From: a virus
DNA: 47,828 nt
Reading direction: 5' to 3' (one strand)
IMG/VR virus record: IMGVR_UViG_3300028030_000018
Location: 1-47,828 of that record
Program-made: the position numbers and the translations under genes
In this document: positions 25,414-47,828 of the stretch, one piece after another
Layout: each line of letters opens with the position of its first letter
How positions within the stretch are numbered: the stretch's first letter is position 1
The notes under the pieces: generated by a model
Database searches by the model: none
Told to the model about the DNA's origin: nothing
The model's input: only the letters and a program-made list of their open reading frames with translations

Positions 25414-27276
25414 TTATATTGTTAGCGGCTCTGTCCGCTCACCATATAGTTTTTTTATATCTGTGTTATTCAGTACTTTATTAAACACACGCGCATGATC
25501 CATCCAGAATTTACTACCGGCATCTGCCTGAAGACTAAACCATAAAGGGCTTAAAATATTGTTAGATGCGCCTGCTTCTAAAGTTCTATCTTTACCATCA
25601 ACCCAAATATGAGAGGATCCGCCGTTATTTAACCATACTACATGATGCCATTTACCATTGTTTAAATTCGACATGTTATCGGTCCATATATAAGACAACA
25701 CATCCGACCCTATTACTCTCAATCTATATAGACCGCTCCCGACACTTTCAGTAGTTATCGCTTGTGTTGGTGTGTTGTTAACACTATCAAAAAAACCAGC
25801 GCTAATACCATAATGCATGTCACCTTCAGCTTTAAACCAAAAAGATATAGAGAAACCATTTACCATATCAAGGTTTATGGACCCTACCGGATTTGAATAA
25901 TTTCCATTCTCGGAATACAAACTATGGTATTCAGTAGGTGGCGCAAATCTATCAGCGTAAAAAATACTGTCGCTATGATAGTGGAGGCCTCCGGCCGATA
26001 AATTGTACCTAGCTCCGCAATCAAGAGCATTACCTTCAAATCTATATAAAGCTACAGCTGAGCCGTCCTTTAAATATTCTGTAGCTTTGAGACTATCGTT
26101 GAAAAACTGACGCGCTACTATGGTACTTGTTACATGATTGTTTATAAACCGTAAATCGTCTAAATAAACACCAGCTACGCCTGTACGATCACCGAAAGTA
26201 AACATATTAGCTGTATTCAAAGTAGCTACCATGACACCTTCCACAGATGTGGTGTCCATACCGTTGACATATATTTTGATTTTATGACCCCCGCCATCAG
26301 AAATAAAGGAAATCAAATAATGGTTAACATTACTATAACTCGGATTGTCGCCTTCAGCGTTAGTAGTAACATAATCACCGCTCACAACCACATTACTTGC
26401 ATTAACTTGAATATCTACCTTAGGCGATGGATCCCCTTCAATGAAGGCTTTTAATACAGAACCAGGCATACCACCGGGTACCCAAAATGCTATGGCTGAT
26501 TTAGTATACACAAAAGGGAAGTTTTTAACTATTAAACCTTTTTGATTGTCGTCTACATATATTCCTTTAGTATATCTGCAGTTATTGGTGTAAGATACTT
26601 CAGAAGCAGGATCACCATTATATTTACCTGCAATACATTTATCTGGAGGAGCCATATAATTGTATAGATTATCCTGAAATCTATAATGAGCAAAAACACC
26701 TGCATACATAACTGTATATGTAGTGGCTAAATGATCGTAAGGTACTGCTTGCGTAGGCGCGAAACAAGGATGATAGACTTGCGCACCTCCGGAATAGTAC
26801 GGGTCTGTACTTAAGGTAGGGCCTGTTTTATCTCCGCAATATGTGAGTTCTTTGGTTTCACATATAGATGAAACTGTTATAGGATCGCCATTTATATCTG
26901 TAACTTGATCGCCATTCTCGTCGTAAACATAAGCATCACCGAAAAAATGATCTACTTTTAACGCCTGATTCCAACCTTCATCCGATCTCGTTGTTTTGTA
27001 TGAATTAGATATGATATAAACCAGATGAAATAAAGGTTTATTAAAATCTGGTAACCTTACAAGAAACGGTTTGGTACCGTGATTTAAATCACCTAAATAA
27101 AAAGCTCTCCAATCTTGTTGTTTTTGATCTGTATCCAAGAACAACTGTAATGTATAATGGGTGGGAGTAACACGCAATCTATTACCCAAACCATTATAAC
27201 TATGGGTTTGTATCTTGGTGTCGTTTTTGAAGGCGCATTCGCCTAATTTATCTTCGGGAAATTTAATATAGGCCAT
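25414..27276 (-). CDS. Tail protein with two LamG-like domains
   Basis: 620 residues. The N-terminal 115 residues resemble the N-terminus of the next gene's product (a strand-rich unit with a WRAFY helix and a PFLVRL strand). Two concanavalin/LamG-like domains follow, about 190-395 and 400-610, each beginning with a [YL]-x-F-x-x-N-L-like strand (AHYRFQDNL, ALYRFEGNAL) and containing the typical KWHHVVW and WVDG strands. LamG domains bind glycans, so this is a plausible adhesin. AAGGAGG upstream of ATG. Confidence 0.75.
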   Translation of the reverse strand: MAYIKFPEDKLGECAFKNDTKIQTHSYNGLGNRLRVTPTHYTLQLFLDTDQKQQDWRAFYLGDLNHGTKPFLVRLPDFNKPLFHLVYIISNSYKTTRSDEGWNQALKVDHFFGDAYVYDENGDQVTDINGDPITVSSICETKELTYCGDKTGPTLSTDPYYSGGAQVYHPCFAPTQAVPYDHLATTYTVMYAGVFAHYRFQDNLYNYMAPPDKCIAGKYNGDPASEVSYTNNCRYTKGIYVDDNQKGLIVKNFPFVYTKSAIAFWVPGGMPGSVLKAFIEGDPSPKVDIQVNASNVVVSGDYVTTNAEGDNPSYSNVNHYLISFISDGGGHKIKIYVNGMDTTSVEGVMVATLNTANMFTFGDRTGVAGVYLDDLRFINNHVTSTIVARQFFNDSLKATEYLKDGSAVALYRFEGNALDCGARYNLSAGGLHYHSDSIFYADRFAPPTEYHSLYSENGNYSNPVGSINLDMVNGFSISFWFKAEGDMHYGISAGFFDSVNNTPTQAITTESVGSGLYRLRVIGSDVLSYIWTDNMSNLNNGKWHHVVWLNNGGSSHIWVDGKDRTLEAGASNNILSPLWFSLQADAGSKFWMDHARVFNKVLNNTDIKKLYGERTEPLTI

Positions 27277-28475
27277 TAACTTACCTCCTTATATAAATAT
27301 TCTATTCGACTGTCTCCTAAATCATCATTGAGTAGTCTTAACTGATCTATTCTACCTCCAAAACCATTACGACCTAAAAACATATCATGAGCTGTAATAC
27401 CTGCAGGTATTGAACCTACCTGACCTAACGACTCGCTACCATCTATGTAGATATGTACCTCTGAAGGACTAGCAGGTATAGGTCTAAATACTACACATAT
27501 ATGCTGCCATTCTGTTACTGTCTTGCCATGTCCAGGGTCATAGTCATTGATAGAATCACTAGCAGATATAGCATCTACAGTAAAATCAGGTCCGCTAATT
27601 ATTAACTTGTTTGATAAGGCGTCGAACTCGATATACATCTTAACTGTACCAGCTTCTTCTGCTTCAAAAACCCTACCTGAGGCAGAAGAGTCAACAGCTA
27701 ACCAAAAAGATATAGTGTCGTTTGTAAAACTTAGAGGAATACTGTTTACTATAAAACCGGCATTACTACCATTAAACTTAGCGGAATGATCTATATAACC
27801 TATATTGTATGTATTATCTGAGGAAGTTGCGTTATAGTTACCATCTGCTTCTAAATCGTTGTTATTAAATCTATATAAAGCATAACACATACCATCACCA
27901 AAAACATCTCTTGGCGACGCAGGCGGATTAATACAGTCCTCCATATTAGCACCATCAAAACGATTAGAGTGAGTACATGTAACTTCGTTATCTTCTTCCT
28001 CTGTATCTATGAAGAAAGTACCATATATTCCACCACAATCTAAACTTTGAGGTGGCTCTCCTCCTGCTGCCGTATAAGTCCAGTTACCATCGTCATCATA
28101 AGAGTACCCTTTAGGAGGCTGTACTTCTTCTAAATCTAGTACCCCATGCCAGCCATCCATGTCTCGTTTAAACTGAGGATTCATTTTAGTCATTCTAACT
28201 AGTACTTGCTTGAAGTAACCGTATCTATTCATTTTCATGAAAAACGAATCACCTCCATTCTTTATGACTTCGTAGAACTTATGCCATTCTTTCATTAGTT
28301 CGTCAGTTTCCATCTGCATAGTAACTTTGAATTTTGAGGGGAGTTTGAACGCTTTCAAACCCAAACCTTTATTTATCTTTTGCTCTGTAGTAAGAGGCAA
28401 TACAAAAACACATCGGACGCTTAATGAGTGAGGTAATTTCGGTGTCTCTGTTATATCGCATTTACAAGGTATCAC
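27276..28475 (-). CDS. Tail protein with one LamG-like domain
   Basis: 399 residues, starting with GTG and preceded by GGGAG; the start overlaps the previous stop (GTGTGA). The N-terminal 120 residues contain an EWHKFYEVIKNGG helix and FFMKM and VLVRM strands, related to the unit in the product at 25414. A cysteine-rich linker (about 145-185) leads to a LamG-like domain at about 195-398 (ALYRFNNNDL, EWQHICVVF, IYIDG). It appears to be a paralogue of the longer neighbour. Confidence 0.72.
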   Translation of the reverse strand: MIPCKCDITETPKLPHSLSVRCVFVLPLTTEQKINKGLGLKAFKLPSKFKVTMQMETDELMKEWHKFYEVIKNGGDSFFMKMNRYGYFKQVLVRMTKMNPQFKRDMDGWHGVLDLEEVQPPKGYSYDDDGNWTYTAAGGEPPQSLDCGGIYGTFFIDTEEEDNEVTCTHSNRFDGANMEDCINPPASPRDVFGDGMCYALYRFNNNDLEADGNYNATSSDNTYNIGYIDHSAKFNGSNAGFIVNSIPLSFTNDTISFWLAVDSSASGRVFEAEEAGTVKMYIEFDALSNKLIISGPDFTVDAISASDSINDYDPGHGKTVTEWQHICVVFRPIPASPSEVHIYIDGSESLGQVGSIPAGITAHDMFLGRNGFGGRIDQLRLLNDDLGDSRIEYLYKEVS

Positions 28476-42465: not shown

Positions 42466-42520
42466 ATTTATGCGTTATGCATTATGCCTTGTGTGGTTGG
42501 ACTTGGTAATTGTCCTTAAT

Positions 42521-42800
42521 CTTAACCCGGAGTGAATTAACTTTTTATATATTTTAGCCCGGAGTGAATTAACTTGTTCTTAGTCTTAACCCGGAGTGAA
42601 TTAACTTGTTTTTAGTCTTAACCCGGAGTGAATTAACTTGTTTTTAGTCTTAACCCGGAGTGAATTATTTTTTTTATATATATATTTTGGTGCGGAGTGA
42701 ATTAACTTGTTCTTAGTCTTAAACCGGAGTGAATTAACTTGTTCTTAGTCTTAAATCGGAGTGAATTATTTTTTTATATATTTTGGTCCGGTGCTTGTCA
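42521..42800. repeat. Iteron-like array with 32-bp period
   Basis: CGGAGTGAATTA starts at 42528, 42560, 42592, 42624, 42656, 42693, 42725 and 42757, with a degenerate ninth CGGTG at 42789. All spacings are 32 bp except one of 37, so sites sit on one face of the helix (about three turns). Between cores the filler is also repeated (ACTTGTTCTTAGTCTTAA). Candidate origin iterons or terminase/packaging binding sites. No coding frame. Lies between terS and the gene at 42895. Confidence 0.85.
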
Positions 42801-42894: not shown

Positions 42895-43212
42895 TTAAAT
42901 ATTATCATATATAATTTTATTTAATTTATCTATCAATCTTTTTTCTGAATTAAATCTTAAATAAATCGTTATTAAATAATCGATATAATCGATTAATAAA
43001 TAATTATCTTTAATTTTATTTATTTTAAATAATAAATCGATTATATTCAGTAAATCGTCAATCTTTAAATTATTCTGAACATATAATTTTAATTTATTAA
43101 TTAAATCGTCAATTGATTTATTTTTATTATTAAAATTAACTGACACAATTTTACTACATAAATCTATTTTAATATTATTCAATATTAAATCTACATCGAC
43201 ACGTTTATTCAT
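42895..43212 (-). CDS. AT-rich helical unknown protein
   Basis: 105 residues, rich in Asn, Ile, Leu, Lys and Asp, probably all-helical, no recognised domain. It follows a promoter at 43247-43242 and the stereotyped leader AAAAGGATTTAAA before ATG. The gene ends about 95 bases before the iteron array. ATCG/CGAT is dense in its DNA compared with the late genes. Function unknown; an early regulator or origin protein is possible. Confidence 0.65.
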   Translation of the reverse strand: MNKRVDVDLILNNIKIDLCSKIVSVNFNNKNKSIDDLINKLKLYVQNNLKIDDLLNIIDLLFKINKIKDNYLLIDYIDYLITIYLRFNSEKRLIDKLNKIIYDNI

Positions 43213-43229
43213 TTTAAATCCTTTTATAT

Positions 43230-43275
43230 TTTATATATTATATTATATCGTAATTTTACTGAAGATCTACTGAAT
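43230..43275 (-). promoter_or_regulatory. Early promoter, minus strand
   Basis: TATAAT at 43247-43242 in the context TCAGTAAAATTACGATATAA, a near copy of the + strand promoter at 43652-43670 (CAGCAAAATTACGATATAAT). It drives the gene at 43212. The 38-bp upstream element lies about 50-90 bp further upstream. Confidence 0.7.
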
Positions 43276-43295
43276 CGCGTTGTAAATTTAATCGT

Positions 43296-43334
43296 ATCGT
43301 GAGTATTTTTTATTATCGTAATTATAATTTAAAC
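43296..43334 (-). repeat. Upstream element copy 1
   Basis: GTGAGTATTTTTTATTATC followed by TAATTATAATTTAAAC. Two more copies occur at 43579-43616 (opposite strand) and 46943-46981 (2 mismatches in 39). In each case the copy lies about 40-60 bp upstream of a TATAAT promoter and points the same way as transcription, so it looks like an activator or UP-type site for early genes. Confidence 0.75.
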
Positions 43335-43360
43335 GAATCGTGAGGACTGTTGAGTATCAT

Positions 43361-43470
43361 TAAATCGTATTATTAATTACAATTAAATCGTATTGTTAAT
43401 TATAATTAAATCGTATTATTAATTACAATTAAATCGTATTGTTAATTACAATTAAATCGTATTGTTAATT
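43361..43470. repeat. Five 23-bp direct repeats
   Basis: AAATCGTATT occurs at 43362, 43385, 43408, 43431 and 43454, always 23 bp apart and always followed by [AG]TTAATTA. The array lies in the divergent intergenic region between the genes at 43212 (-) and 43796 (+), flanked by inverted copies of the 38-bp upstream element. Probable regulator binding array or secondary origin. Confidence 0.8.
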
Positions 43471-43578
43471 AGTATAAAGTCTTATACAGCATGCTACTTT
43501 ATGCTTCTCGTTTATTATAACATCACGTTATCATAAATCATAATTTGCCATTCTCGCGGTACTATTTTTATAGATTCG

Positions 43579-43616
43579 GTTTAATTATAATTGTGATAAT
43601 AAAAAATACTCACGAT
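43579..43616 (+). repeat. Upstream element copy 2
   Basis: The reverse complement of the 43296 copy with few changes. It points toward the + promoter at 43665, so the divergent region is nearly symmetrical: element, promoter and gene on each side of the 23-bp repeats. Confidence 0.75.
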
Positions 43617-43639
43617 TCGTTAAAATTTATAGCTCGTTT

Positions 43640-43685
43640 CAGGCTAAATTCAGCAAAATTACGATATAATATATTATATAAAAAA
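43640..43685 (+). promoter_or_regulatory. Early promoter, plus strand
   Basis: TATAAT at 43665-43670 preceded by AAATTCAGCAAAATTACGA and followed by ATATTATATAAA. It shares TTCAGGC-AAATTCAGC with the promoter region at 46920-46899 on the other strand. It drives the mini-ORF at 43706 and the gene at 43796. Confidence 0.72.
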
Positions 43686-43705
43686 TAAAACAAAAAGGAT
43701 TTAAA

Positions 43706-43717
43706 ATGAAAACATAA
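43706..43717 (+). other. Three-codon mini-ORF with strong ribosome site
   Basis: AAAAAGGATTTAAA, the phage's standard leader, precedes ATG AAA ACA TAA. The real gene starts 79 nt later at 43796 with the same first three codons (ATG AAA ACA) but a weaker site. It may be a translational decoy, a regulatory minigene, or the relic of a duplicated gene start. Confidence 0.5.
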
Positions 43718-43795: not shown

Positions 43796-44245
43796 ATGAA
43801 AACAAATAACAAAAACAACAACAAAAACAACAACAAAAACGATAACAAAAACGATAACAAAAACGATAACAAAAACGATAACAAAAACGAAAATGTACAA
43901 TTAACTAAATTAGATCAATTACGATTACAAATCGAAGCTAAAATGAAAATGAAAAAAACATTAAACGATCTCGAACTATTCGATTACATTGTCGATCATA
44001 TTAAAGCTAACAAATCGTTAACGAAATCTGCATGTGTCAAACAAATTCGTATCGATAACTATTCAATTTCACAATCTCGTGTATTTAATATATTCGATTC
44101 GATCGTTGCAGCTATCGAAGATGAAAAGAAATACGAATTGTTAAATAAATTAAACGATGACGATCGTAAAGAATACGAAAAACTAATCGAACAACAAAAA
44201 CAATTCGAATTGAAAATGCAACAATTTAAATCTAAATTAAAATAA
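43796..44245 (+). CDS. Asn/Lys-repeat early protein with HTH-like segment
   Basis: 149 residues. The N-terminal 34 residues are K-N-x-N repeats coded by 12-bp DNA repeats (AACAAAAACGAT). The middle holds KSLTKSACVKQIRI followed by SISQSRVFNIF, the same putative HTH-like segment as in the products at 5276 and 8834. A charged C-terminal coiled-coil follows (DDRKEYEKLIEQQKQFELK). A strong terminator follows the stop. Probably a DNA-binding early protein; function unknown. AGGA lies about 14 nt before the ATG. Confidence 0.7.
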   Translation: MKTNNKNNNKNNNKNDNKNDNKNDNKNDNKNENVQLTKLDQLRLQIEAKMKMKKTLNDLELFDYIVDHIKANKSLTKSACVKQIRIDNYSISQSRVFNIFDSIVAAIEDEKKYELLNKLNDDDRKEYEKLIEQQKQFELKMQQFKSKLK

Positions 44246-44303: not shown

Positions 44304-44500
44304 GCTTTTTTTACAATGCCCCTTATCATTCATCATAACATTCATGTGTCATTCATCATAACATTCATGTATCATTCATCATAACATTCATGTATCATTT
44401 TGTACTCTGATTGTGTATCATTAACCAGCCGGTCTACTTATCCGGTACGTTCGTGAATCTTGACGCTCCTGGAACGTTCAATTTTCCGAAACGCGCGGTC
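44304..44500. repeat. Three 23-bp repeats in gene-free stretch
   Basis: CATTCATCATAACATTCATGT occurs at 44327, 44350 and 44373 with two-base spacers (the 20 bases after the first C are constant). The following bases to about 44500 are less AT-rich than their surroundings, with no gene visible. Function unknown. Confidence 0.7.
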
Positions 44501-44680: not shown

Positions 44681-44752
44681 ATGTGATGTGATGTGATGTA
44701 ATGTGATGTGATGTGATGTGATGTGATGTGATATGATGTAATGTAATGTGAT
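44681..44752. repeat. ATGTG pentanucleotide microsatellite
   Basis: About fourteen tandem ATGTG/ATGTA/ATATG units. Low complexity, non-coding. It may be slippage-prone. Confidence 0.9.
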
Positions 44753-44785: not shown

Positions 44786-45430
44786 TTAGAGAGCAAAATC
44801 GCGATCGTTTAATATGGTTGTAAATGTGTATTGATCGCGTATAAGCATCAATGCTTCTAGTCGTTCGTTTTCAGTTAATCCTATGAACATGTGAGATGCA
44901 AGTATGTTCAAAAATGTGTCTGTTGTTATTGTTACGATATCTGTAACGCCTTCTTGTATCGTACGACAATATAGTAACTGGCGATCTACATGAAACATAT
45001 ATACGCTATCTGTTTCTATTATGATATCTCTTTCGTTTTCGAGTGTAGCACATAATTGTTTCACTTCATCTAATGTGTCTGTGAATTGAAATGTTGCTGA
45101 TTTGATATCGGCAGTAACTGTATTAACACATCGAATTGACGCATCTAGTGGATATAATCGTTTCATTTTGTTGATTGTTTTGATTAGTTTTGTTTTGTTG
45201 TTTGTTAACGCACGCGCCATCACAGAATAAAATTCGTCACGTGTGAATTGTTTAGCTCTTGTGATATATTGTTCTGTGAGTGTACGACAATGCAATACGC
45301 CTGACATTACGCTTATCATGTATAACGCTGTAGGTGTTGCGATCACGACATCTTTGTCGTTGTTTAATGCGTCACATATTCGTTTAGCATCTTTGATTGT
45401 GTTTGTGTTGTCGAAAATGAATGTTCTCAT
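44786..45430 (-). CDS. Early protein with two copies of a novel domain
   Basis: 214 residues. Two related halves, about 1-95 and 112-207, start with TFIFDNTNTIKDAKRICDAL and TFQFTDTLDEVKQLCATL, followed by N-[DE]-[KR]-D-[VI]-x-I-x-T and then a [LV]-[HY]-C-R-T strand. The same unit is found in the products at 46841 (one copy) and 46432 (degenerate). I do not recognise the family. GAAAGGATCGAACG precedes the ATG, and a promoter and the 84-bp repeat lie upstream. Confidence 0.75.
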   Translation of the reverse strand: MRTFIFDNTNTIKDAKRICDALNNDKDVVIATPTALYMISVMSGVLHCRTLTEQYITRAKQFTRDEFYSVMARALTNNKTKLIKTINKMKRLYPLDASIRCVNTVTADIKSATFQFTDTLDEVKQLCATLENERDIIIETDSVYMFHVDRQLLYCRTIQEGVTDIVTITTDTFLNILASHMFIGLTENERLEALMLIRDQYTFTTILNDRDFAL

Positions 45431-45477
45431 CGTTCGATCCTTTCGTATTGATTTTTATATATATATATTTTATATAT

Positions 45478-45500
45478 TTTATATTATATAATAAATCGTA
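45478..45500 (-). promoter_or_regulatory. Probable early promoter
   Basis: Minus-strand TATAAT at 45488-45483 after TTCAGCTAAATGTAATACGA, echoing the TTCAGC plus TACGA pattern of the other early promoters. It lies about 55 nt before the start at 45430. Confidence 0.5.
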
Positions 45501-45554
45501 TTACATTTAGCTGAATTGGTCGCATAACAACGTAATCGTATAGGGATTCATGGT

Positions 45555-45638
45555 ATTACGCGCGTGTAATATGAAATTATATGCTAATACCGCGGAATTG
45601 CTGTAATATGCGCGTTTTTGTGCGTTTAAATGCTGTAT
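45555..45638. repeat. 84-bp direct repeat, copy 1
   Basis: Identical over 84 bp to 47047-47130. It begins ATTACGCGCGTGTAATATGA and ends TTTAAATGCTGTAT. Contains CGCGCG and TGCGCG cores. Each copy lies upstream of a minus-strand early gene (45430, 46841), at about 125-210 and 205-290 bp. A shortened relative, TATGCGCGTTTAAATGCTGT, is at 21231-21250. Confidence 0.9.
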
Positions 45639-45700
45639 TTATAAAATTGTAATGCTGTGATTGTGTGATTGTGTGGGTGAGCCGCATTGCGACTCGTGTA

Positions 45701-46432
45701 TTAAAAGTGAGGTGGTGTGATTGCGGTCACGAGATCTGCATGTTCGCCGGTGTCAGCTTGCGGAGCTATGATATCGATTAAGATGTCGTATATAGTGTCG
45801 TAAGGGTTCACACTTGAATGGCTTACTGTGGTGCAATTGTTGATTAGGTGCCAGTGGATGTACTGTTTATGTATGTTTGTGATTATATGAGTGTTGCCTG
45901 TGCTTGTATGTATAACCACCTCGTTGTCATCTTCTAGTGTTGTGAGTATGTTCTGTACTGTTTTAAGTGCGTTGTTGAAACATGATCTGTCGTTGCTGCT
46001 ACGGAAACATGTATCATAAAAACGATCGTGTAATTCGTACTCTTTAGCGGTGTAATGAAGTATCGAGCGACAAGGATCATCAAGTACATCAGGTATTGCG
46101 CATACCTCTTTAACGCGATCAAGCACAATGTTATACACTTCAGAGTTGCGGTCATGGTCGCGGGCTATGTCGTCTGTTAACAGCTGATGTAAGAATAATG
46201 TTGCTGTAATGTGTGAATCTTTATATTCGATCGAATCGAGCGCTTCATCATAAGTAACTTCTGCATAATACAGCATGTTATCAATAATAGTAAAGCGATG
46301 TAAGTTTCCCTCGAGTGTCTCGAGTGTAATGTCTCTGTCATTCAACAGTTCATTTCTGAATGCCGCAGCATCTGTCAGCGTACCTTTGTAATCGAATATT
46401 CTCATATCGTGAATAGGTAATGGGTTTTTCAT
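45701..46432 (-). CDS. Early protein with degenerate copies of the novel domain
   Basis: 243 residues from ATG 46432, which has AAAAGGATTTAAC upstream; the longer frame to 46582 overlaps the neighbouring gene. Residues about 10-60 (MRIFDYKGTLTDAAAF then LLNDRDITLET and MLYYAEV) and about 155-205 (FNNALKTVQNILTTLEDDN then VVIHT) resemble the domain in the products at 44786 and 46482, but Cys-Arg is lost. Function unknown. Probably cotranscribed with the gene at 46841. Confidence 0.68.
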   Translation of the reverse strand: MKNPLPIHDMRIFDYKGTLTDAAAFRNELLNDRDITLETLEGNLHRFTIIDNMLYYAEVTYDEALDSIEYKDSHITATLFLHQLLTDDIARDHDRNSEVYNIVLDRVKEVCAIPDVLDDPCRSILHYTAKEYELHDRFYDTCFRSSNDRSCFNNALKTVQNILTTLEDDNEVVIHTSTGNTHIITNIHKQYIHWHLINNCTTVSHSSVNPYDTIYDILIDIIAPQADTGEHADLVTAITPPHF

Positions 46433-46481
46433 GTTAAATCCTTTTGTATGTTGGCTGCCTGTAATGACAGCCTTTGTTGTA

Positions 46482-46841
46482 TTAGTTGACATAGTCAACA
46501 TTGTTTGACAGCTTTTTAAATGTATATGTTGCTTTGACTGCTGCGAATTGCTTGTTGTACTCTTCCTCTGTAGCGTCTTCATCGAGCATTCGCGTTGTGA
46601 ATGCAGTGAATAGTGTGTCTACTGGAATAGGCATTACATCTTCGATTTCAAGTTGTGGCTTGTGTCGCATCGGTCTGCATAGTAATATGCCGTTGTCGGC
46701 TTTTAGTATGAATATAGTTCTGTCGTCGATATGTAATAATATTTCCGCTGTGTCGTTGTCGAGTGTTTGACATATAGTCTTAACGTCCTCGAGTGTGTTG
46801 TTGAATGTGAATGTCGGCAGTGCTGTCATAAATAATGGCAT
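46482..46841 (-). CDS. Early protein with one copy of the novel domain
   Basis: 119 residues. TFTFNNTLEDVKTICQTLDN, then ILLHIDDRTIFIL and GILLCRPMRHK, followed by a helical C-terminus ending in ATYTF, aligns with both halves of the product at 44786. It is the first gene of its transcript, with GAAAGGAAAAGCA before the ATG, a promoter at 46904-46899 and two repeated upstream elements. No recognised function. Confidence 0.72.
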   Translation of the reverse strand: MPLFMTALPTFTFNNTLEDVKTICQTLDNDTAEILLHIDDRTIFILKADNGILLCRPMRHKPQLEIEDVMPIPVDTLFTAFTTRMLDEDATEEEYNKQFAAVKATYTFKKLSNNVDYVN

Positions 46842-46930: not shown

Positions 46931-46942
46931 AATTAGCTATAA

Positions 46943-46981
46943 ATCGTGAGTATTTTTTATTATCCTAATTATAGTTTAAAC
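46943..46981 (-). repeat. Upstream element copy 3
   Basis: Two mismatches in 39 bp against 43296-43334. It lies 40 bp upstream of the promoter at 46904 in the same orientation relative to transcription as the other two copies. Confidence 0.78.
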
Positions 46982-47046: not shown

Positions 47047-47130
47047 ATTACGCGCGTGTAATATGAAATTATATGCTAATACCGCGGAATTGCTGTAATA
47101 TGCGCGTTTTTGTGCGTTTAAATGCTGTAT
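47047..47130. repeat. 84-bp direct repeat, copy 2
   Basis: Exact copy of 45555-45638. Perfect identity over 84 non-coding bases suggests recent duplication or strong constraint, such as a binding region for a phage or host factor. Confidence 0.9.
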
Positions 47131-47576
47131 ATGCAGTTTTATATATACAATATTTTGAGTATGCTAATGTCTTCATTGTTGATCGTTGTGTTTATGTCTG
47201 GTCGTGTGCTATAGGTTGATCTGCTTAGGTGATTTTCTTGTTTTATGGCTGGATTTCCACTTTTGTGTTATGGTGGTTTGAAGGACGGTGTGATTAGTGT
47301 ATTAGTGTGTTCTATATGTCTTTTTGTTCTGTATGTTGGTTTGTTCTATACATCTTTTTGTTCTGTATGTTGGTGTGATCAAAATGTTGGTGTCGCTGTT
47401 GTTATTCAGTGGCTTAGATTTCCAAAAGTGTCGGTCCTATTTTTCTAGAATGCGTTTTATGTTTGGTTTGGTTTGGTTTGATTTGGTTTGATCGTTTATG
47501 CGGATTTGATCGTTTATGTTTGGTTTGATCGTTTATACGGATCGTTTTTTATGTTGTTTCGGGTGGAGCAGGCCAG
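47131..47576. other. Gene-free right-end region
   Basis: A short open frame (47245-47448, Cys/Val/Phe-rich) has no ribosome site and I do not call it. The stretch contains the fourth GGTCCTATTTTTCTAGAATG element (47433) and TTTGGTTTGATCGTTTA-type tandem repeats at about 47458-47545. No promoter pattern is clear. Confidence 0.55.
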
Positions 47577-47828
47577 GGTCAATATTAGCCGTTTATGCAA
47601 TATCATCAATACTATCAATACCATCAATGCCAGCTCTACATCAATACTATCAATGCCATCAATGCCAGCTCTACATCAATACTATCAATACTATCAATAC
47701 TATCAATACTATCAATACTATCAATACTATCAATACCATCAATACTATCAATACTATCAATACTATCAATACTATCAATACTATCAATACTATCAATACT
47801 ATCAATACTATCAATACCATCAATACTA
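47577..47828. repeat. Right terminal repeat with expanded 9-bp array
   Basis: 47577-47691 equals 1-115. From 47675 to the end there are about 17 tandem ATCAATACT units with two ATCAATACC variants, ending mid-unit. Left and right ends diverge only in the array, so copy number may vary between molecules or be an assembly effect. This supports a complete, terminally redundant or circular genome. Confidence 0.88.

Follow-up and report, generated by a model that had tools for sequence, protein, structure and literature searches.

Three adjacent genes of an uncultured, siphovirus-like phage, here called P1, P2 and P3, raise the question of whether their products are copies of a single repeated domain and, if so, what such a domain does for the phage. 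The window, by which we mean the whole stretch of DNA analysed, comprises all 47,828 bases of one virus record (IMG/VR record IMGVR_UViG_3300028030_000018). Its minus strand encodes a terminase, a portal protein (DUF4055), a Gp13-like capsid protein and a tape measure protein, together with a B12-type ribonucleotide reductase; its plus strand encodes a family A DNA polymerase, helicases, an exonuclease and an ATP-dependent ligase. The terminase is 41–49% identical to those of Jerseyvirus, Eiauvirus and Dhillonvirus. Two adjacent structural-region proteins (25414–27276 and 27276–28475) are paralogous to one another, with 21% identity over 403 residues (E = 2e-10). P1, P2 and P3 are located between the divergent plus-strand (rightward, replication) and minus-strand (leftward, structural) operons. 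An earlier note on this DNA had placed them at the genome end; bases 1–115 recur exactly at 47577–47691, within a 9-nt tandem repeat, indicating that a circular-type assembly was cut in a repeat and that the supposed end is an assembly break.

Three intact genes carry five candidate units

The open reading frames beginning at 46841, 46432 and 45430 are present as the earlier note had described them. All three are intact, and each start codon, including that of P2 at 46432, lies behind an AAAGGA-type ribosome-binding site. The genes and their units are as follows:

46482–46841, minus strand: P3, open reading frame with an AAAGGA ribosome-binding site; single unit at residues 9–117 of 119 amino acids; pI 4.6
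45701–46432, minus strand: P2, AAAAGGA before the ATG at 46432; two diverged units in 243 amino acids; pI 4.8, net charge −22
46043–46432, minus strand: P2c, first unit of P2 and the weakest member, without the Cys-Arg motif
45704–46042, minus strand: P2d, second unit of P2, diverged; assigned from shuffles and hhalign (E = 0.0022)
44786–45430, minus strand: P1, open reading frame; two-unit gene, 214 amino acids
45113–45430, minus strand: P1a, basic unit of P1; pI 9.7, charge +8
44789–45112, minus strand: P1b, acidic unit of P1; pI 4.3, charge −11; nearest to P3

We considered and rejected a highly acidic DNA mimic of the Ocr type, since charge is not dense over the whole of each protein (P3, −8 in 119 amino acids; P2, −22; P1, −3, with one half basic).

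The three products are diverged copies of one domain

We compared the units in pairs against 1000 shuffles. Similarity was greatest between P3 and P1b (z = 18), followed by P1a and P1b (z = 16) and P3 and P1a (z = 9). Comparison of P1a or P1b with the units of P2 gave z-scores of 4–7, including 6.7 for P1a with P2c, and P3 with P2d gave 5.5; P2c with P2d, and P3 with P2c, were at chance (z = 1.3). A profile built from P3, P1a and P1b only was then searched against 380 open frames from the window together with the reversed sequence of each (380 more). The profile ranked P1, P3 and then P2 (E = 3e-4), with the next-best of the 760 real and reversed frames at E = 0.17, and it found no further copies of the unit among them. 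The score of P2d against this profile was equalled by none of 2000 shuffles, and that of P2c by 2 of 2000. Based on the z-scores and the profile result, we regard three copies as firm (P3, P1a and P1b) and two as diverged (P2c and P2d). These sequence comparisons confirm that P1, P2 and P3 are diverged copies of one small domain.

The sharing of a unit in up to five copies, as proposed in the earlier note, is thus upheld, and the significant profile similarity between units extends to P2; the unit itself spans about 100–110 residues rather than about 95. The motifs ascribed to it, a cysteine in the helix and a Cys-Arg pair in a strand, are confined to P3, P1a and P1b and are missing from both units of P2. 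P3 and P1b have exactly two cysteines each, at these two places, and P1a has both as well. The strong differences between copies that had been described were also observed: one gene is near-intact, another holds two copies and a third is degenerate.

The units differ at synonymous sites to an extent that equals or approaches what random synonymous codons would give, indicating that the duplications are old and that dN/dS is not interpretable. Hence, positive selection cannot be claimed, and the description of an expanding family under selection does not hold in that form. The fold-defining pattern persists across this saturated divergence, indicating that the protein was under constraint. P2 has diverged to such a degree that it may be a decaying copy.

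Predicted structure of the unit

We modelled P3 with AlphaFold2 using the alignment of the five units, obtaining a mean pLDDT of 76 and a pTM of 0.62. The model has strands at residues 10–12, 33–37, 42–49, 52–60, 64–66 and 70–72, and helices at 17–27, 74–85 and 92–105. The AlphaFold model of P1 was weaker (pLDDT 60, pTM 0.42); its two halves have the same order of elements, about 110 residues apart. In a comparison of element order covering the P3 and P1 models, P3, P1a and P1b share a strand, a helix, three to five strands and two helices.

Foldseek searches with the P3 model against the PDB and BFVD (viral), and with the P1 model against the PDB, gave no match at E ≤ 0.001. SH2 domains did occur in the PDB lists, as single domains for P3 (5to4, 6wax, 7q5t) and as tandem domains for P1 (SHP2, PLC-gamma), with E of 0.09–1, TM-scores of at most 0.44 (P3) and 0.19 (P1), and rmsd of 9–17. 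The predicted order of strand, helix, three to five strands and helix is that of an SH2 domain, and together with the single and tandem matches it is what would be seen if the unit were a form of the SH2 fold carried by a bacterial virus, binding phosphorylated or other short linear peptides. By contrast, the best TM-score of 0.44 (E about 0.5–1) is below the 0.5 threshold for the SH2 tertiary fold, unrelated folds score equally well, and neither structure nor sequence gives a significant match to SH2. Moreover, the segments corresponding to beta-B in the five units (EILLH, DVVIA, DIIIE, DITLE and EVVIH) all lack the arginine of the FLVR motif. Because of the low TM-scores and the missing arginine we do not assign the unit to SH2, and we consider a relationship of this kind very improbable.

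Shared boxes and direct repeats surround the genes

The promoter-like boxes reported near the genes were recovered. A 23-nt box, GATAATAAAAAATACTCACGATT, occurs in three near-exact copies (at most one mismatch), all in this region and none elsewhere in the window, and each is followed, about 20–30 nt downstream, by a −10-like motif, TTCAGC...TATAATAT, that has only three sites in the window. These elements are common to P3 and two neighbouring orphan genes:

46942–46964, minus strand: 23-nt box upstream of P3
46897–46923, minus strand: TTCAGC...TATAATAT promoter-like motif of P3, common to 43240–43266 and 43646–43672
43295–43317, minus strand: 23-nt box upstream of the orphan gene 42895–43212
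43240–43266, minus strand: promoter-like motif of the orphan gene 42895–43212, shared with P3
43595–43617, plus strand: 23-nt box upstream of the orphan gene 43796–44245
43646–43672, plus strand: promoter-like motif of the orphan gene 43796–44245, shared with P3
42895–43212, minus strand: neighbouring orphan of 105 amino acids, open reading frame with box and motif; putatively co-regulated, unrelated to the unit (profile negative)
43796–44245, plus strand: neighbouring orphan of 149 amino acids, open reading frame with box and motif; putatively co-regulated, unrelated to the unit (profile negative)

Upstream of P1 there is a looser version of the TTCAGC...TATAATAT motif, without the 23-nt box. 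A generic sigma-70 scan found promoter-like sites to be no commoner than in shuffled DNA. As recurring sequence elements, the boxes are evidence of putative shared regulation, and not of its timing. The early expression and the anti-defence role suggested in the earlier note are not supported by this analysis and stay conjectural.

The surroundings of the neighbouring orphans have several further features. The gene at 42895–43212 has 14% GC over its 105 codons, compared to about 38% for the genome, suggesting a foreign or unusual origin. The N-terminus of the product of 43796–44245 is encoded by a 12-nt microsatellite-like array of NKND repeats, possibly a length-variable protein tail. At 43706–43717, a perfect ribosome-binding site leads into an ATG and, immediately afterwards, AAA ACA TAA, which makes a frame of three residues; its context matches that of the start of 42895–43212, and it could encode a leader peptide or be what is left of a gene start since lost. 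The divergent promoters of both neighbouring orphans are contained in a 118-nt inverted repeat (43222–43339 and 43573–43690) that is 84% complementary.

P3 and P2, together with their promoter-like element, are bracketed by a pair of direct repeats:

47047–47130, no strand assigned: 84-nt direct repeat, copy 1, non-coding, upstream of P3; 100% identical to copy 2
45555–45638, no strand assigned: 84-nt direct repeat, copy 2, non-coding, between P2 and P1; 1492 nt from copy 1

Recombination between these copies would be predicted to delete or duplicate the 1.49-kb P3–P2 cassette. The copies are identical beside proteins that are only about 30% identical, suggesting that they are recent or are kept alike by recombination. 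Their predicted RNA folding is not unusual (z of −0.2 and 0.2).

We also observed at least six tandem repeat arrays, with units of 5, 9, 18, 23, 23 and 32 nt, between genes within about 5 kb (42510–42781, 43359–43471, 44324–44399, 44681–44752, 47461–47542, and 47605–47828 with 1–215). The array of 32-nt units, immediately upstream of the terminase genes, is a possible packaging site. An element close to GCGGTCCTATTTTTCTAGAATGC (the GGTCC element) has at least four intergenic copies, at 44495, 44629, 47431 and 43556. Exact scans of IMG/VR found no copy of the 23-nt box, the 84-nt repeat or the GGTCC element, and Rfam gave no match.

The unit has no match outside this phage among the records searched and is probably accessory

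The earlier note had not recognised the family, and our searches agree: the units of P1, P2 and P3 reached the curated cut-off of no Pfam or NCBIfam family and had no convincing or significant match in PHROGs or PADLOC. Weak matches to RPW8, DUF6669, CesT_sub and phrog_26611 were rejected, since each fell far short of the cut-offs or was no better than chance. For PHROG 26611 (unknown function), the two halves of P1 align to a single short segment of the profile, positions 8–43; however, E was only 0.02–0.04 in one genome, unrelated control genomes also give matches, and P3 and the units of P2 do not match the profile.

We found no homologue of the unit in 50,697 phage records or 72,556 plasmids, in IMG/VR (single-protein scan and unit profile) or in GTDB (unit profile). 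The scans of these last two collections depend on almost exact short peptides and miss distant relatives; the single-protein scan missed even the terminase of the nearest relative, a fragment from IMG sample 3300044607 here called L008 (72% identical), which was found by an alignment scan. The L008 sequence extends only 0.9 kb upstream of the terminase before ending in a tandem repeat of its own, and so breaks off before the region of P1–P3. That repeat, upstream of the L008 terminase genes at positions 1–126, has a 65-nt period. Since both L008 and the present phage break in tandem repeats, this part of the genome is apparently difficult to assemble throughout the group. That no relatives were found is thus due partly to the limits of the searches and partly to poor sampling of this phage group.

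A terminase scan of GTDB found no close relative, and relatives identified through the DNA polymerase are only about 31% identical. Guernseyvirinae (Jerseyvirus) and other siphoviruses with 41–49% identical terminases have the same core terminase, portal and capsid families; by contrast, those searched lack the repeated unit. Overall, 49 records reached through a related terminase or polymerase all lacked the unit, indicating that P1–P3 are accessory rather than core genes. The single weak match among those records (E = 0.025, with an internal stop) was taken as chance.

Possible functions of P1–P3

By exclusion and from genomic context, we tentatively favour the reading that P1–P3 are a lineage-specific, duplicated accessory family of small proteins that bind host proteins, at somewhat less than even likelihood. 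One small alpha/beta domain, duplicated repeatedly, would have yielded P1, P2 and P3. P3 and P2 are probably on one transcript, from the promoter element common to the two other orphan genes, and P1 would be transcribed from its own start. Each unit may act as a small, soluble, non-enzymatic binding module gripping a host protein, with one- and two-unit versions and differing charges (P1a, +8; P1b, −11; P3, −8; P2, −22) suited to different partners, and the putative outcome would be a host process or defence weakened during infection. Consistent with this reading are the homology of the units and the common element order in the P3, P1a and P1b models, the small, soluble character of the proteins with no enzyme family match (which is still compatible with an enzyme), the absence of the unit from the 49 records, the box and −10-like motif found before P3 and two other orphans only, and the bracketing 84-nt repeats. 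Counting against it are the background-level sigma-70 scan, the strong divergence of P2, which may be decaying, and the absence of a homologue in any other genome searched, which leaves conservation and invariant surface residues unreadable. Anti-defence genes of archaeal viruses have been predicted under the guidance of regulatory sequences (PMC11065993), and those clusters likewise have several small orphans behind the same boxes, outside the core operons; here, by contrast, the products are paralogues of one repeated domain, whose early expression and anti-defence activity would be predictions, and the parallel may serve as a working analogy only. A bolder form of the host-binding reading, in which the unit is a new fold or superfamily used as a mix-and-match binding module, its copy number varied through the 84-nt repeats and the locus, with the two orphans, devoted to counter-defence, we consider improbable.

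P1–P3 might instead regulate the phage's own transcription, replication or packaging, their site of action being beside the divergent operons and repeat arrays. The location of the genes between two operons, amid tandem arrays and shared boxes, is consistent with such a role, and the basic P1a could bind nucleic acid. However, searches gave no match to DNA-binding families, helix-turn-helix proteins included, acidic pI or charge characterises three of the five units' proteins or halves, and the unit is missing from related phages that have the same core genes; we regard self-regulation as unlikely, though a serious contender. The saturated or near-saturated synonymous sites, the high amino-acid divergence and the loss of the Cys and Cys-Arg motifs from P2 would also be seen if the genes were duplicated orphans that now serve little purpose or none, P2 decaying, kept by chance and by recombination between direct repeats, for which the exact 84-nt copies provide a route. 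This is quite unlikely, since all frames are intact behind good ribosome-binding sites and the retention of the fold-defining pattern despite saturated divergence requires selection on the protein. Small, variable phage accessory genes with their own promoters often serve superinfection exclusion or toxin-antitoxin-like roles, and this general precedent favours products that exclude superinfecting phages or form a toxin-antitoxin-like pair. There was no PADLOC match to support such a role, inspection by eye showed neither a transmembrane nor a secretion signal, and the open reading frames examined included no integrase and gave no other hint of lysogeny, leaving this a distinctly doubtful explanation.

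Clusters of phage orphans under common promoters are often a source of new inhibitors of bacterial immunity or host enzymes. If P1–P3 do bind host proteins, paralogues in one- and two-unit forms would make it possible to compare the ways in which a single binding module is retargeted, and the exact direct repeats around a gene cassette offer a concrete hypothesis for how such families may grow.
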